A stretch of 64,000 bases of DNA from an uncultured Kiritimatiellota bacterium (GTDB lineage: Bacteria > Verrucomicrobiota > Kiritimatiellia > RFP12 > DVOR01): NCBI GenBank assembly GCA_944389945.1, contig CALXOF010000006.1, positions 1 to 64,000 of the forward strand, written 5' to 3'. The position numbers and the translations under genes were made by a program. The first letter of the stretch is position 1, and each line of letters begins with the position of its first letter. This document shows, in pieces, positions 4,056 to 63,452 of this stretch. Below the pieces are notes generated by a model that made no database searches, was not told the origin of the DNA, and saw only the letters and a program-made list of their open reading frames with translations.

Positions 4056-4099
4056 GGTTTGTCTTTCCGAGTTCGCGGCGAATCTCCTTTTCGTTTTAT

Positions 4100-5177
4100 G
4101 TTAGTGTAGCAAAAAAGGGACGCTGGCGCGCCCCGGAGAACAGAGAACGGAGCGTGCAGGCCCAAAGGGCCAAACCTTCCACGGCCACGGAGAACGGAGC
4201 GCCCCTGCGGGGCGACGGGTGAGGCGGTGGGGGAACTGTGGAAGGTTTTTTAGAAAACACGAAGAACACGAAGGACCACGAAGGGACACGAAGGGTGGAA
4301 CCGCAGATTTCGGAGAAACACAGAGGAGCACAGAGAGGACAGAGGGACACAGAGGCGGGCGGTGTGCTAGCGCACGCAGGACTGCCAGAGTGTCTTTACC
4401 ACAAAGTGCACAAAGAGGCACAAAGGACACAAAGGGGAGTTGACGGATTAGCTGATTGAGAGATTAGCTGATTGGATGATTGGAGGGTGTGGGGCGCTGC
4501 CCCACGCCCCGGCAGGGAGAAGTTCTCCCTGCACCCCCGGCACGTCCGATGGACGTGCCAACAAGCACGCGGGGGCGGGCCGTGCGTGTGCGCAAGGCAC
4601 ACGTCCGGCCCGTGGGCCTGTAGGGGCATGGCGGGCTTCGCACGCCATGCTTTGGGGAGTTGGGAATCTAGCGGCGGAGTCGCCGTCCTAGTTGTCCTAT
4701 ATGTCCTATGGGTCCTACCGCGAAGCTTGGTGATGTTCCGCGAAGACTTGAAAGAGGGCCCAAGCGCGAAGACGATGGGCGGGAGGGAGCGATCAGCGGG
4801 CGTTTAGCCCGCAAAGCGACCGGCGTTAGCCCATCTGGCTTCGCGCGCACCTTGCGTCTTTGCGGAAATGGAGGTGGAAAGCCAAGCTTCTAAGCCTCCA
4901 AACTTCCAAACTTCCACAGGAGGTACAGGAGATTCAGGAGATACAGGAGCGCCCGATAAACGGGCGACGGAGAAGAGCGCTGTGCATAAGCAACGTCAGC
5001 CGCCGTCTTAGAGGTCTTACCGTGCTGTGGAAATTTCCAGGAATGGCACAGAAACGCAAGGGATGGGCGCGGTAGTGAGGCGCAACGCGCCGAACGGTGA
5101 AGTGCCCAGGCCCTTGCGTTCCTTTGGTGTCTTCGTGGAGAACTTCCAGTCAGCCAATCAGCGAATCAGCCAATCAG
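4100..5177. repeat. repeat mosaic between dprA and pta
   Basis: No gene is supported in this 1.1-kb gap; short ORFs here run through repeats. In order: HP-C (4125-4220), DR9 tracts of CACGAAGGA then CACAGAGGA type (4253-4355), an HP-D fragment (4360-4400), CACAAAGGA repeats (4400-4435), DR8 (4444-4476), HP-B (4485-4562), a long block shared with 57.5 kb (4528-4866), DR9 GGAAGTTTG (4880-4915), DR9 AGGAGATTC with a GCGCCCG/CGGGCG hairpin (4915-4975), HP-A (5050-5135) and DR8 (5148-5178). Confidence 0.8.
4528..4866. repeat. long dispersed repeat, copy 1
   Basis: About 340 bp that is nearly the same as 57544-57883. It runs from the third HP-B hairpin through a GGGCCGTGCGTGTG block and a GTCCTATAT-type 9-bp repeat to an HP-E block ending CCTTGCGTCTTTGCGG. 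Differences between the copies often fall in pairs inside hairpins, for example GGAGTCGCC versus GGAGCCGCA. Confidence 0.8.
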
Positions 5178-5220
5178 CAAAAGAGACCGGGCGCTCCGGT
5201 GGAACGCCCGGTGTCTTTTG
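5178..5220 (-). terminator. terminator after pta
   Basis: On the minus strand ACCGGGCG pairs with CGCCCGGT, extended by GAC/GTC, and CTCTTTTGC follows. The same GCCGGGCGCTC...GAGCGCCC hairpin recurs at 56405-56435. Confidence 0.6.
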
Positions 5221-5237
5221 GCATTTCTGCCACGACG

Positions 5238-6406: not shown

Positions 6407-6610
6407 TATACTAATAACACGCGATGGGAGAGCCATCGTAACTTTGCACTTTACGCAAATTGATTGCCTCAGTCGAAACTTCGGAACTTTCAATTGAGAA
6501 GGCAATTCAATTGGTGAAGTGTGCCATTCCTTGGCACACTTCCTTTTTGGATGCTTTCTCATGGGTTCCGAAGACCTCGACTGAAGCACGCAAAAAGGAA
6601 GTGTGCTTTT
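6407..6610 (+). promoter_or_regulatory. structured leader RNA, copy A (riboswitch-like), with promoter
   Basis: TATACT (6407-6412) is followed by CACG (6418) and hairpin P1, CGATGG-GAGAG-CCATCG (6422-6438). P2 is TTTGC/GCAAA (6443-6459). A stacked arm follows: Pa CAGTCGA/TCGACTG (6470-6476 with 6577-6583), Pb CTTCGGAAC/GTTCCGAAG (6479-6487 with 6565-6573), Pd TGAGAAGGC/GCTTTCTCA (6495-6503 with 6553-6561) and Pc GAAGTGTGCC/GGCACACTTC (6516-6525 with 6533-6542). The segment 6534-6549 is perfectly complementary for 16 bases to 6591-6606, which holds the AAGGAA ribosome site of the next gene. Copies B (18568) and C (40610, minus) share the fold. Confidence 0.75.
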
Positions 6611-7660
6611 ATGTCTACAAATGACTCCTCTGACAAACTCCACTTGGCCTATGCAACGGACAAGGGATATTTACTTTTGGCGACGGTCTCGGCCTTGAGC
6701 GCCATCTCACAGACAAGCGACCCCGCACAGCTTGTCTTCCATCTGCTTGATTGTGGATTGGACGAGGCTGACTGGAAACGCTTCCATGAAACTTTGACGC
6801 GGGGTGATACGAAACCAACGGTGTTGCGTCATCGTATTGGGATGGGGCAATTTGAGGGGTTCACAAAGTGGCGAGGTAGCATGGGGCCATATGCGCGACT
6901 CCTGTTACCGGAGATTCTGCCAGATGAATCGTGGTGCGTGTATGTCGATTGTGACACCCTCTTCGTTGACGATCCGCTGAGGTTGCGCGCGTGCGTGGAC
7001 CACAAAGCCGCGCTTCAGGGATACCCGATTTGGCAGGGGAACTTTAGCGAACAATGGGTGGTGGATGAGGTTTGCGCCTGGTTTCGCGAAAATCGAGGCA
7101 AAGATATCGAGAATGGCACACTCTATATCAATTCAGGCTTCATTGTGGTCAATCTGGATTGGTGGCGCAGACATGGGGTAAAAGACGCGTGCATGGATTT
7201 CTTGCAACAATGCCCCTCCGCTCATTGGCCTGATGAAATGGCCCTCAACGATGCTTGTTTTGGCCACACCAAAGCTCTTCCCGCTGGATGGGGCACCTTC
7301 GCCGGCTATGCTTTGCGTACGCCTACACTCCACTGTGTCCATTATATCGGCTGTGCGCCGCACAAGACGCGTTTCAACCAAATGTATGGGTTCAACGACA
7401 TCACGGCCGCCTGGATGGTCTGTGCGCAAACACTGCTTGGCCTGTCTGTGACGGAGGCATGTGGTGTGCCGCGTTGGAAATGGGAACTTGGGCGGCTTTA
7501 CAACCATCTGCTTCGTCCTATCGTTGCACTTGGAGTACATCTTCCGAGTCTAAAAGGGACAAAGCTTGTCTTCCTACTCCAAGGAACCTTCGTTACAAGG
7601 GCCAATCGATGGCTCCATTCCCCTCGGCTGTGGACGGAGCGCTGGCATGGACAAGCCTGA
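6611..7660 (+). CDS. glycosyltransferase family 8 protein
   Basis: 349 residues. GT8 enzymes are retaining, metal-dependent sugar transferases that use UDP-sugars, often for LPS or surface glycans. The DxD motif is DCD at residues 113-115 (CVYVDCDTLFVDDP). The N-terminal LHLAYATDKGYLLLATVSAL, the LYINSGFIVVNLDWW segment and the later WPDEMALNDACFG match the GT8 fold. The acceptor and sugar cannot be read from the sequence. I chose ATG 6611 because AAGGAA lies ten bases upstream; the in-frame ATG at 6521 lies inside the leader RNA. The gene is monocistronic. Translation is probably controlled by the leader at 6418-6610. Confidence 0.87.
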   Translation: MSTNDSSDKLHLAYATDKGYLLLATVSALSAISQTSDPAQLVFHLLDCGLDEADWKRFHETLTRGDTKPTVLRHRIGMGQFEGFTKWRGSMGPYARLLLPEILPDESWCVYVDCDTLFVDDPLRLRACVDHKAALQGYPIWQGNFSEQWVVDEVCAWFRENRGKDIENGTLYINSGFIVVNLDWWRRHGVKDACMDFLQQCPSAHWPDEMALNDACFGHTKALPAGWGTFAGYALRTPTLHCVHYIGCAPHKTRFNQMYGFNDITAAWMVCAQTLLGLSVTEACGVPRWKWELGRLYNHLLRPIVALGVHLPSLKGTKLVFLLQGTFVTRANRWLHSPRLWTERWHGQA

Positions 7661-24597: not shown

Positions 24598-24618
24598 GGC
24601 TGAAGCTGGTCGCTTCCG

Positions 24619-24648
24619 AAAGGCGCCGCCCCGCGGCGCCTTTTTTGT
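24619..24648 (+). terminator. terminator after rplT
   Basis: GGCGCCGC and GCGGCGCC pair around CCC (24622-24640) and TTTTTTG follows. Confidence 0.9.
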
Positions 24649-24709
24649 TGTTTGTCTGGGCCTCCCATCTCCACGAAGACACGAAGGGGCGCTTGCGCGC
24701 CCTCACCAC

Positions 24710-24740
24710 TTGACGTAATGGGGGGGGGGAGTGGTATTAT
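24710..24740 (+). promoter_or_regulatory. promoter with poly-G spacer (CD225 operon)
   Basis: TTGACG (24710-24715) and TATTAT (24735-24740) are 19 bases apart, and the spacer holds a ten-G run (24720-24729). Loss of two Gs would give the optimal 17. It stands 60 bases before the first zinc-ribbon/CD225 gene. Confidence 0.65.
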
Positions 24741-24800
24741 ATCTGTGCAATGGGTATGAGGCTGATTTGTCTTGGCCCGATTTGAACAGAAAGGGAAGTG

Positions 24801-25430
24801 ATGTTTTGCTCGAATTGCGGATTTAAGCTGGCGGAGACGTCGAAATTTTGTCCCCAGTGCGGGACAAAAGTTGAACCCATCTCCATCGCCCCGGCAGTGC
24901 CGGAGGCGCCTGCTTCGGTATCGTCCCAGGCCCCCGCTGATCCAATGATGGAAGCACCGGTGATGGAGGAACCTGCTCCTACTCCTACTCCGGCACCGGC
25001 GGTAACGAGGCCGGCCATCCCATCGACGGTGCCACTGCGCAAAGGCTCTTATGCGTCGCAGACGATTGGGCAGGGCCCCAGGAAAACGGTGCGCCGTGTG
25101 GTACGAACCTCTGCCCAGCCGTCGACATCGCAGATGCGGGTCCCCACTCGACCGTTGACGCCGCAGGAGCAACTAGCGCAGTATCGTCGGCTTCGCCCCT
25201 CGCCGCTGGTGTGGTCCATCTTGGCGACAATCTTGTGTTGCATGCCGCTGGGCGTGGTCTCAATCGTGATGGCGTGCAAGGAGAATTCGTGCCTGGCGGT
25301 GTATGACTTCACGGGTGCCGCAGAGGCGAACCAGTCGGCGCGGACCTGGGCATTCTGGGCCCTGATAACAAGCATCATCGGTAACGGCATCTCGTTCTTT
25401 ATCTTGTTTGCGCTCCCCGATACCTTCTGA
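24801..25430 (+). CDS. zinc-ribbon and CD225/dispanin-like membrane protein
   Basis: 209 residues. An N-terminal zinc ribbon MFCSNCGFKL...FCPQCG at about 1-22, a long Pro/Ala/Glu linker to about 135, then two membrane helices: LVWSILATILCCMPLGVVSIVMA followed by a loop and the last helix near 185-205. The CCxPLG-x-x-S segment is typical of CD225 (dispanin, interferon-induced transmembrane-like) domains. Bacterial members have no known role. AGGGAAG is close before ATG 24801. It is the first of four genes in line, all membrane proteins; the poly-G promoter at 24710 likely drives them. Confidence 0.75.
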   Translation: MFCSNCGFKLAETSKFCPQCGTKVEPISIAPAVPEAPASVSSQAPADPMMEAPVMEEPAPTPTPAPAVTRPAIPSTVPLRKGSYASQTIGQGPRKTVRRVVRTSAQPSTSQMRVPTRPLTPQEQLAQYRRLRPSPLVWSILATILCCMPLGVVSIVMACKENSCLAVYDFTGAAEANQSARTWAFWALITSIIGNGISFFILFALPDTF

Positions 25431-25477
25431 GGCATCGGCGCGTGGATTGAGTGATAACCGTAAACGGAGAAAAACTT

Positions 25478-25867
25478 ATGTTCTGTCCTAACTGTGGTGT
25501 GCAACAACCCGACAATGCATTTGCCTGTTCCCAGTGCGGGGCGCCGCTTTCCGGCCGGCCGCAGAACCCACAGTCTGTGGCCCCACACCCCATGCAAGGG
25601 GGAGCGCAGGGAGGCCAACTACTTCCGCCGCCCTCTTACTTGGCCGGCGCGATTCTGGTGACGCTCTTTTGCTGTCTGCCCTTCGGCATCGTGAGCATTG
25701 TCTTTGCCTCGCAGGTCTCGGGCCACATTGCCTCCGGGAATCTGGCTGCGGCACAAGAGGCCTCAAGAAAGGCGGCCACCTGGATGTGGTGGGGCTTTGG
25801 CATCGGCCTGGGCATCAACCTGCTTTGGGTCCTCTTCTACGGCTTTGCTTTCCTGGCCGCCCTTTGA
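25478..25867 (+). CDS. zinc-ribbon and CD225-like membrane protein
   Basis: 129 residues. The N-terminal zinc ribbon MFCPNCGVQQPDNAFACSQCG is followed by a short Gly/Pro/Gln linker and a CD225-like pair of helices (ILVTLFCCLPFGIVSIVFA, then SRKAATWMWWGFGIGLGIN). ACGGAG is eight bases before ATG 25478; an upstream GTG at 25451 in frame is less likely. The stop overlaps the next start (TGATG), so the two are coupled. It looks like a shorter paralogue of the gene before it. Confidence 0.75.
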   Translation: MFCPNCGVQQPDNAFACSQCGAPLSGRPQNPQSVAPHPMQGGAQGGQLLPPPSYLAGAILVTLFCCLPFGIVSIVFASQVSGHIASGNLAAAQEASRKAATWMWWGFGIGLGINLLWVLFYGFAFLAAL

Positions 25868-26673: not shown

Positions 26674-27510
26674 TTAGTGCTTCTGTAGCAAAAGCTGTTT
26701 CTGAATGTCTTGGGCGGCACGCCGTACTCGCCGTATAGTTTCCTGCTCTTCGGTTGTGTTAGAGCGACTCTGCAAGAGCTCCCATCTCAAAGAAAGAGAC
26801 AAATCCTTAACCTGGCAGGAGACTGCGACAACGACCTCGTTGGAGTACAGCTTATGGGCTTTTCTGTAGGCGAGCAGCCTCGTCCAAGACCACGGATTCA
26901 GGTCTTCGACTTCAAACGTGCCACTCTCCACTTCCCCACTCGGGACCTTGATGGAGTATTTGGCGGTATAGAAGTCTTCCTTCCCCTCCTGCTCAATGAG
27001 CTCAAAGTCAACAATCTCGTAGCGATCCATGTTGACACCCTCTATATCGAGGGTGGTGATAAACTCTTTCCGGGCCGCTTCGATAAGCCGGTCATGGTGC
27101 GTGATGCCGTAGTAACATTGAATGCCTGCGTTAATAAGGATAGCGATAAAGATGATACACGCCACAATGACGCCAATCTTATTCACCTTACGCTTCCAAG
27201 CCTCCATCTTCTTGGCTACGGCCTCTTTCTTTGCCGTTTCCGGGTCGGGGGTGCCTCCCATCTCCTCCGCCTTCGGCGCCTCCGGCTCAGGGGCACCTTG
27301 AGGGTGAGCCGTTGCGTCACTTGCAGACCCCTTCGGCGCTTCCTGCTCGGGGGCACCTTGAGGGTGAGCCGTTGCGTCACTTGCAGACCCCTTCGGCGCC
27401 TCCGGTTCGGGAGCTTGTTGGGGTTGGGGCGTGCCGTTGACCGCCGCGCCACACCGCGTGCAGAACTGATTGCCATCGATGAGTCGATTACCGCATTTTG
27501 TGCAGAACAT
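26674..27510 (-). CDS. zinc-ribbon single-pass membrane protein with repeat linker
   Basis: 278 residues. A zinc ribbon MFCTKCGNRLIDGNQFCTRCG at 1-21 is followed by a Pro/Glu/Ala linker with a 22-residue repeat (GAPEQEAPKGSASDATAHPQ-type, two full copies plus a partial) at about 32-80. A basic helix and one membrane segment (IGVIVACIIFIAILINAGIQ, about 112-131) come next, then a soluble region of 145 residues I do not recognise. The ribbon suggests kinship with the CD225 genes opposite. AAGGAAGG is close before ATG. The gene is convergent with the DUF2752 gene; its promoter has a G-run (27563-27591). Confidence 0.75.
   Translation of the reverse strand: MFCTKCGNRLIDGNQFCTRCGAAVNGTPQPQQAPEPEAPKGSASDATAHPQGAPEQEAPKGSASDATAHPQGAPEPEAPKAEEMGGTPDPETAKKEAVAKKMEAWKRKVNKIGVIVACIIFIAILINAGIQCYYGITHHDRLIEAARKEFITTLDIEGVNMDRYEIVDFELIEQEGKEDFYTAKYSIKVPSGEVESGTFEVEDLNPWSWTRLLAYRKAHKLYSNEVVVAVSCQVKDLSLSLRWELLQSRSNTTEEQETIRRVRRAAQDIQKQLLLQKH
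27283..27420. repeat. 66-bp in-frame tandem repeat
   Basis: Two nearly perfect 66-bp units and a partial third lie in the linker of the zinc-ribbon gene (minus strand). They differ at few bases, so copy number could change by slippage while the frame is kept. Confidence 0.85.
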
Positions 27511-56224: not shown

Positions 56225-56558
56225 TCGGAACCGCAGATTTCGCAGATTTTGAGCAGATTTAGGGCGTGCTACCGCACGCAGGACTGCCAGTTTATTTTTA
56301 CCACAAAAGGCACACAGGGGAAGTGGCTGATTGGCTGATTGGAAGGGTGTGGGGCGGAGCTCCACCAAGAAGACCAATCAGCCAATCAGCGAATCTGCCA
56401 ATTAGCCGGGCGCTCAGATGGAGCGCCCAGTGTCTTTGCTGAAAACTTCCTTGGATAGTGTCAAGAGCGCCTTTACGGGCAACGGATGACAGTGGGGTGT
56501 GGGGCAAAGCCCCACCAAGAACACCAATCAGCTAATCAGCCAATCAGCTAATCAGCCA
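56225..56558. repeat. HP-D, DR8 and terminator-like hairpin behind dnaA
   Basis: HP-D (56225-56300) with GCGTGCTACCGCACGC, DR8 (56324-56342, 56378-56404, 56523-56558), two GGGTGTGGGGC...GCCCCACC hairpins (56345-56370 and 56495-56520), and GCCGGGCGCTC/GAGCGCCC (56405-56433), the stem also used at 5186-5212. Confidence 0.7.
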
Positions 56559-62922: not shown

Positions 62923-62979
62923 GGCTAAATTCCTTTGTGAAGCGCTTATTATACCATTTGTGGGCGGCTCGTGCCGCCC

Positions 62980-63452
62980 ACGCTGATTGGCTGATTCGCT
63001 GATTGGAGCGTGCGACGGGTGGGGTCGTGGGAGAACTGTGGAGGGTTTACGCTGCGCGGCTATCACGAAGAACACAAAGGACCACGAAGAGACACAAAGA
63101 ACTGCCAGTGTGTTTTTAGATCACAGAGAACCACAGAGGATTGCACAGAGAGACACAGAGAAAGGCCGACCAGCACTGCCCGAATGATTGGAAATCACGA
63201 AGGAGACAAAGGACACAAAGGGATTTTGGATGATTAGGGGATTGGCTGATTGGGAGATGTGGGGCGCTGCCCCACGCCCTGGCAGGGAGAAGTTCTCCCT
63301 GCACCCCCGGCACGTCCAAGCACGCCCCAGCAGGAGATGCAGGAGATTCAGGAGATACAGGAACGCCCGGTAAACGGGCGACGGAGAGAGTGGGGGCGTG
63401 GGGCGGAGCCCCACCAAGAATACCAATCAGCCAATCAGCCAATCAGCTATTC
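62980..63452. repeat. repeat mosaic between glyS and the lipoprotein gene
   Basis: DR8 (62984-63007), an HP-C remnant (63015-63060), CACGAAGAA repeats (63065-63105), CACAGAGAA repeats (63120-63170), DR8 (63229-63257), HP-B (63256-63318), DR9 AGGAGATTC with a GCGCCCGGTAAACGGGCG-like hairpin (63330-63385) and DR8 (63424-63452). The last DR8 reaches the stop codon of the lipoprotein gene and supplies its final bases. Confidence 0.75.

Follow-up and report, generated by a model that had tools for sequence, protein, structure and literature searches.

Short repeats in the spacers of prokaryotic genomes have been described under several names. REP sequences and REPINs, which occur with RAYTs, are short palindromic intergenic repeats that are present in many copies and are non-autonomous, and the short repeats of cyanobacteria are intergenic, arranged in tandem and scattered over lineages, with mobility suspected. 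MITEs have inverted ends and small gene-less copies whose movement in trans is presumed. In the available portion of one account, TAACTGA heptamers of Beggiatoaceae and others form intergenic tandem repeats that are scattered over lineages and suspected of mobility (PMC4679880). For the intervening sequences (IVS) of 23S rRNA, the part of the literature available to us describes, in one well-studied case, heptamer tandem repeats beside the gene, excision by RNase III, and suspected mobility (PMC4990558). The Avd protein of diversity-generating retroelements, as far as the accessible text of its source goes, resembles the four-helix family and is needed for retrohoming (PMC10053308); separately, a GxxExxY-domain gene next to a reverse transcriptase has been mentioned in published work.

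Here we analyzed a 64,000-nucleotide stretch (the window) from an uncultured Kiritimatiellota bacterium whose assembly, G000, comprises 2.33 Mb. The initial annotation had described almost every spacer over 200 bases between 4 and 63 kb as composed of nine or so families of repeats, with coding regions nearly free of them. The window and 20 further stretches of the same genome gave 178 gaps (104,289 bp) and 333,243 bp called coding by a home-made caller, which missed some genes (e.g., at 6521-7660). In this sample, 694 12-mers were each present in 10 or more gaps, compared with 50 in 10 or more genes; the corresponding counts of 16-mers were 420 and none. An all-against-all comparison yielded 10,683 gap-gap matches versus 63 among 178 coding pieces, some of the latter being overlapping pieces of a single gene. 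The contrast between gaps and coding DNA was thus real and far above chance, and the number of families exceeded nine. Longer modules (GGACTGCCAG, the GAGAACRGAGAAC array, and the GGCACGTC..GACGTGCC hairpin) occurred 34 to 102 times per 100 kb of gap, 0 to 1.8 times per 100 kb of coding DNA, and not at all in shuffled gaps. Short words separated gap from coding DNA less cleanly, at 304 versus 35 per 100 kb for CACRAAG, 220 versus 27 for GCMGATT, and 198 versus 17 for CTGATT. Half (50%) of all gap bases were common to other gaps; some gaps shared little, as at 24598-25639 (3%). The window also contains tandem repeats of 94 bp (1474-1698) and 60 bp (27270-27411), both 92% matching and unlike the short arrays.

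The gap at 4056-5237, flanked according to Pfam by PTA_PTB and DprA genes, is mapped in Table 1 together with gene-bearing copies of the families that make it up.

Table 1. Features of the gap at 4056-5237, a miniature F element elsewhere in the window, and gene-bearing copies of array families in this and other genomes
Feature	Position or locus	Strand	Basis or remark
Repeat mosaic, DprA-family gene to phosphate acetyltransferase gene	4056..5237		94% common to other gaps
M family: hairpin 4117-4134, GAGAAC array 4135-4152, nested N, array, hairpin 4200-4214	4117..4214	+	Read in sequence
N element, ~33 bp, inside M array	4153..4184	+	Sequence context
D-family array CACGAAGG	4256..4294	+	Gene-bearing copy with GxxExxY: G005, L309
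Single A unit belonging with B hairpin and C motif	4300-4309
E-family array CACAGAG	4319..4355	+	CACAGAG arms flank GxxExxY in G427 (L276)
B hairpin and C motif, inner part of A element's left end	4361..4388	+	Order matches GxxExxY side in L273, L274
Second D-family array CACAAAGG	4400..4436	+	Tandem array
F-family array CTGATTRG	4450..4483	+	Gene-bearing copy with four-helix gene: L347
Three consecutive hairpins, families G, H, I	4487..4559		Without known gene-bearing copy
P-family array TCCTATA	4685..4719	-	Inverted pairs seen; gene not found
R-family unit CCGCAAAGACGCAA	4850..4865	-	Inverted around GxxExxY in L132
J-family array, right-end orientation	4882..4916	-	Four-helix genes in L337, L348-L350
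K-family array CAGGAGAT	4916..4949	+	Inverted K arrays enclose four-helix-suffix gene in L036
O-family hairpin element with short arrays	5046..5139	+	O ends around GxxExxY in L279, L304
F-family array, right-end orientation	5146..5178	-	Tandem array
Miniature F element without gene: F array, hairpin, inverted F array	56325..56407		Read in sequence
A-B-C with GxxExxY	G000:C2:179322, G006:C53
R with GxxExxY	G000:C4:97022
D with GxxExxY	G005:C31
O with GxxExxY	G005:C3, G006:C64
M with four-helix gene	G000:C5:118787 and 115376; also G005, G008, G004
F with four-helix gene	G000:C17:4607
J with four-helix gene	G005, G008, G004, G006
K with four-helix-suffix gene	L036

Orthologues of this gap differ greatly in length. 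The same two genes lie 1182 bp apart here and only 35 bp apart in G004 and G001, 61 bp in G007, and 84 bp in G006, so tightly coupled genes are not always spared, contrary to the initial annotation. In the sister genome, G005, about 745 bp (window ~4480-5237 versus L074) are almost letter-identical to the gap, after which the sequences diverge and the G005 contig ends within the gap. Because of this near identity, part of the mosaic must be older than the G000/G005 split or have been exchanged. The presence of the same repeats in the same places in relatives, named in the initial annotation as the mark of old, fixed sequence, was therefore seen partly in G005; the rest differs, and at this gap other members of the genus have short spacers. 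Recurrent words show a similar distribution. The number of 12-mers common to at least three gaps was 601 in G000 (the window), 1468 in G005, 4 in G004, and 8 in G006, with none in the samples of G001, G007, and G008 (samples of 17 to 160 kb; 17 to 73 kb for G001, G004, G006, G007, and G008). The word CACAAAGGACACAAAGG, with at most one mismatch, occurred 54 times in G000, 160 in G005, 81 in G004, 8 in G001, 4 in G006, and 0 in G007, G011, G013, and G049; the reversed word had no match in any of these nine genomes. In a sample of the phylum, CACAAAGGACACAAAGG was present in 41 of 288 genomes. If the repeats were old regulatory or structural sequence (terminators, chromosome organization, or protein sites) maintained by selection, their avoidance of coding DNA, the pairing retained in their hairpins, and the near identity with G005 would be expected, but the four relatives with 35 to 84 bp at this gap, the scarcity of shared 12-mers in the genus outside G000 and G005, and the differences between the sister genomes inside many gaps would not. 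The short orthologous gaps largely rule out this account of their origin, which we consider very unlikely; later use of single copies is possible.

Between G000 and G005, 104 orthologous gaps were compared, of which 45 rows (one gap appearing twice) measured at least 60 bp in either genome, and many were unequal in length. The alignment of orthologous gaps that the initial annotation had proposed revealed short sites in relatives and, between these two genomes, only 10 clean indels on whole-gap alignment. They include differences of 14 and 16 bp in array copies, the gain or loss of an entire N element (33 bp), a 95-bp difference between 11-bp repeats, and an insertion of 716 bp. These 10 indels had no constant target-site duplication and are too few for target-site statistics. 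The array-copy changes and the 95-bp difference would also fit a spread of the arms by host slippage, template switching at hairpins, and recombination at microhomologies, with the genes being passengers or using the arms as RNA processing signals. The 716-bp insertion lies in the G005 orthologue (L075) of window positions 62923-63446. It is flanked by a direct repeat of 16 bp, its ends appear by eye to be imperfectly inverted, and it may be an ordinary transposable element.

The inverted pairing of arrays and the gene-bearing copies are absent from the initial annotation. Three tandem units of CACRRAGRN were found in at least 120 stretches from many phyla, archaea included by record title, against a roughly estimated chance expectation of ~2 in that much random sequence. 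Among the matches listed, which span many phyla, 56 of 110 testable loci with CACRRAG arrays had an inverted partner within 250 bp downstream, and 3 had one upstream; two CACRRAGRN array loci held a gene with the GxxExxY motif. At G150:C15 ~26686-27077, pairs of CACAAAG arrays that face each other are repeated with a spacing of 170 bp, which gives the impression of a tandemly repeated miniature element. Profile searches found PF13366 (GxxExxY) in 23 of 26 genomes and 3 of 14 controls and, as a test of specificity, PF05635 (four-helix/23S-rRNA-IVP) in 21 of 26 and 0 of 14, the 26 genomes having been picked for arrays or kinship rather than at random. By eye, most of the first 20 GxxExxY loci had flanks with inverted arrays. 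The flanks of four-helix genes had inverted arrays as well, built of other words, so that the layout is not confined to a single gene family. NCBIfam and Pfam confirmed the identity of two GxxExxY and two four-helix proteins from G000; family profile searches placed the genes of both kinds in this assembly outside the window. One GxxExxY gene of a Herpetosiphon genome (L272 in G424) is probably dead because of an internal TAG stop, and its inverted flanks persist.

We then called inverted arms from the inverted similarity of 300-bp flanks, with no motif supplied, at a score of at least 14. This score was reached by 46 of 62 GxxExxY loci (10/11 inside the genus and 36/51 outside) and 34 of 41 four-helix loci (11/11 and 23/30), and 16/62 and 7/41, respectively, had no inverted flank by this measure. 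Control loci (dnaN and racemase-like) reached it in 1 of 23 cases and far flanks in 1 of 40, and when flanks were exchanged between genomes, 2.9% (GxxExxY) and 3.7% (four-helix) of comparisons did so. The GxxExxY set derives from 70 rows of the PF13366 search, from which 63 genes or fragments were examined (two rows were second pieces, and five fragment rows were omitted) and one gene at a contig end was left out; the four-helix set derives from the 42 of 72 PF05635 rows over the cut-off that were examined, again less one at a contig end. The best arm period was 8 to 10 in 33 of 46 GxxExxY loci and 7 or 8 in 30 of 34 four-helix loci. A strict tandem test (identity, 0.6) was passed by 2/46 GxxExxY and 9/34 four-helix arms. 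Two other scorings were weaker: cheap-gap flank scoring put 14 of 62 GxxExxY loci above the permuted 99% level, and 8-mer count scoring gave 35 of 62, with 6 of 40 far flanks above 95%. In the four-helix permutation, 8-mer count scoring put 17 of 24 loci above 95% and 2 of 24 above 99%, the score-14 method giving 0 of 41; the weaker separation of this set in 8-mer scoring is probably due to related loci sharing arms.

Eight array families were found inverted around a small gene in G000 or sister genomes (A-B-C, D, O, R, F, J, M, and K). A-B-C, D, O, and R enclose GxxExxY/PDDEXK_3 genes, and F, J, and M enclose four-helix-bundle (S23/rRNA-IVP) genes; the F and M genes of G000 belong to the S23p/IVP family by Pfam and NCBIfam, and the J genes do so by PF05635. 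The K gene, of the four-helix-suffix type, combines a weak TIGR02436 match with TIGR04258, and one protein gave a weak bAvd match below the cut-off. The GxxExxY elements carry no S23p/IVP-family gene. Gene-bearing copies were not found for families P (whose gene was specifically sought), Q, N, G, H, and I, nor, within the genus, for E.

Order and orientation, described in the initial annotation as changing, proved to be constrained, in that same-family arrays face each other and families tend toward a common order. Over 825 kb of G000, array pairs in gaps matched the orientation predicted from gene-bearing copies at a ratio of 51:4 (A, 6:0; C, 5:0; D, 13:0; F, 7:1; M, 13:1; J, 7:1; R, 0:1). 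The A and C counts are not independent, since both are part of one element, a few of the pairs may be gene-bearing copies, and R ran contrary to the rule. Among families without a prediction or left out, the +- to -+ counts were 9:2 for N, 0:2 for P, and 0:1 for K, with no pairs for E; the ratio for all families together was 54:15.

Two junctions allowed filled and short spacers to be compared among relatives; we take their neighbor genes to be AtpD-like and racemase-like. Upstream of the AtpD-like gene, the spacer measures 29 to 34 bp in G007, G002, G013, G011, G229, and G003, 105 bp in G001, and 457 to 462 bp in six genomes, with a J-type four-helix element in G005, G008, G006, and G004 and an F-type element in G049 and G000. 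The J-type proteins are 92 to 98% identical (three copies) and the F-type proteins 82%, compared to 64 to 67% between types, so that at this junction the gene switches along with its arms. In both the F-type gene of G000 and the J-type gene of G005, the stop codon falls within the right arm. In G004, the J-type gene (L383/L350) looks frameshifted, with the arms kept. Upstream of the racemase-like gene, spacers are 5 bp (G004), 13 bp (G007), 43 bp (G003), 54 bp (G002), 85 bp (G013), and 104 bp (G011) in length, and 53 bp in G001, where the upstream gene may be different. At this junction, an A-type GxxExxY element is present in G000 and G006 (proteins 78% identical). The spacer of G005 is 161 bp long and contains an M element without a gene. 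That of G049 (L370), a genome lacking the CACAAAGGACACAAAGG word and the N element, is 146 bp long and contains what looks like the right end of an A element, alone and decayed. No target-site duplication was seen by eye at filled versus short spacers of the two junctions. The presence of two element types at one junction, which may reflect site preference or replacement, counts against the mobile-element reading given below.

These junctions bear on the proposal that host processes alone spread the arms. Searches of nine genomes that found neither a Y1 transposase nor a reverse transcriptase, and a layout common to two unrelated gene families, are compatible with it. It fits poorly with the joint switch of arms and gene at the AtpD-like junction, with the occurrence of units with both arms and a gene across many phyla, and with G007, G011, and G013, which have no four-helix gene and at most one GxxExxY gene and lack both the CACAAAGGACACAAAGG word and the N element. 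On balance, we consider an origin by host processes unlikely.

The N element was found in contexts of GAGAAC, CACAAAG, CCAATCAG, and CAGATT; in the first three, it sits, by our reading, at AA with one A lost. It occurs in 6 of 161 genomes of the order, every one of them of this genus. In viral contigs, where N was the sole element sought, its pattern had no exact match. Among 17 distinct forms, 3 of 5 pairs of the inner stem were changed on both sides. The number of stem cells changed on both sides, 11, was equaled in 0 of 500 shuffles, but 46 of the 500 had as many two-sided pairs. Paired changes of this kind could also arise if template switching rewrites hairpins.

We regard it as very probable that the tandem arrays represent inverted arms at the two ends of small mobile hairpin elements and that the mosaics are multiplied, nested, and decayed copies of them. 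To this extent, the single process that the initial annotation had suspected behind the 8- to 9-bp tracts is supported, the otherwise unrelated tracts being inverted ends of one kind of element. A full copy would consist of a left tandem array (period, ~7 to 10), often a perfect hairpin, a gene of ~100 to 200 codons, and the array inverted, with the gene encoding a GxxExxY (PD-(D/E)XK nuclease-like) protein, a four-helix-bundle (S23/23S-rRNA-IVP) protein, or a four-helix protein extended by a suffix domain. The miniature copies have arms and hairpins but no gene. In the G000/G005 lineage, copies would have multiplied in spacers, inserted into one another, been altered by slippage, and recombined at short repeats, producing the mosaics; such nesting would account for the common order of families. 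We infer the following route of movement: the encoded protein would bind its own arms, as DNA or as an RNA hairpin, and together with host repair would copy the element into new spacers, with gene-less copies being moved in trans.

Inverted ends, miniature copies, and hairpins would also fit a known transposon, a REP/RAYT system, or ordinary MITEs that depend on a standard transposase. PF01797 (Y1 transposase) was found in 0 of 9 genomes of the genus, whose assemblies are incomplete, compared with 5 of 14 control genomes, and the genes between the arms belong to the GxxExxY and four-helix families rather than to named transposases; we therefore consider such an origin very unlikely and reject a REP/RAYT origin in particular. 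A reverse-transcriptase origin was rejected as well: PF00078 (RVT_1) had no match in the nine genomes, which also sets the elements apart from the Avd retroelements.

Our best reading is that the mosaics consist of decayed copies, nested in one another and for the most part lacking a gene, of inverted-array elements that are in part related to 23S rRNA intervening sequences. IVS with an S23p/23S_rRNA_IVP gene resemble them, in the portions of the sources available, in protein family and in having an inverted-repeat stem around the gene (PMC4990558, PMC11270868), an arrangement found here at 34 of 41 four-helix loci. The copies read here lie between protein genes, and for the F and J elements the site is a spacer between two protein genes and not the inside of an rRNA gene. 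Their arms consist of tandem arrays, inverted and made up of many different words, copies without a gene abound in one lineage, and a nuclease-like gene replaces S23p in many. They share shortness, palindromic structure, high copy number, and lack of autonomy with REP/REPIN sequences and differ in having arms made of tandem arrays and in the absence of Y1 transposase from the nine genomes. Like MITEs, they have terminal inverted repeats on gene-less copies (56 of the 110 array loci listed, the F element at 56325-56407, and the G005 M element), but their ends are arrays, and their parents carry GxxExxY or four-helix genes in place of a known transposase. The Beggiatoaceae heptamers, by comparison, are direct repeats before genes, with one inverted case and no gene-bearing element named in the available part of that account (PMC4679880). 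Because the defining features of each were not all found, we do not class these elements as IVS, REP, or MITE. In the open-access literature, covered in part and without preprints, no description was found in which GxxExxY genes, or four-helix genes standing free, form elements flanked by arrays.

More tentatively, and at slightly less than an even chance in our estimation, the elements may represent a class of mobile hairpins that spans the prokaryotes and does without a classical transposase, the inverted arrays being binding sites of a dedicated small protein (a GxxExxY nuclease or an S23/Avd-like four-helix protein) that copies the element into spacers. If so, this class would include, as members or debris, much unexplained intergenic short-repeat DNA as well as the 23S rRNA intervening sequences. 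The GxxExxY and four-helix-bundle families are named yet unexplained, and one shared element layout gives them a testable role. The intergenic 7- to 10-bp repeats of many phyla gain a likely source, and the spread of rRNA intervening sequences, a long-standing question, can be tested in free-standing relatives. The elements also explain why, in one lineage, more than 1 kb of arrays and hairpins separates two genes whose spacer in relatives measures 35 bp.
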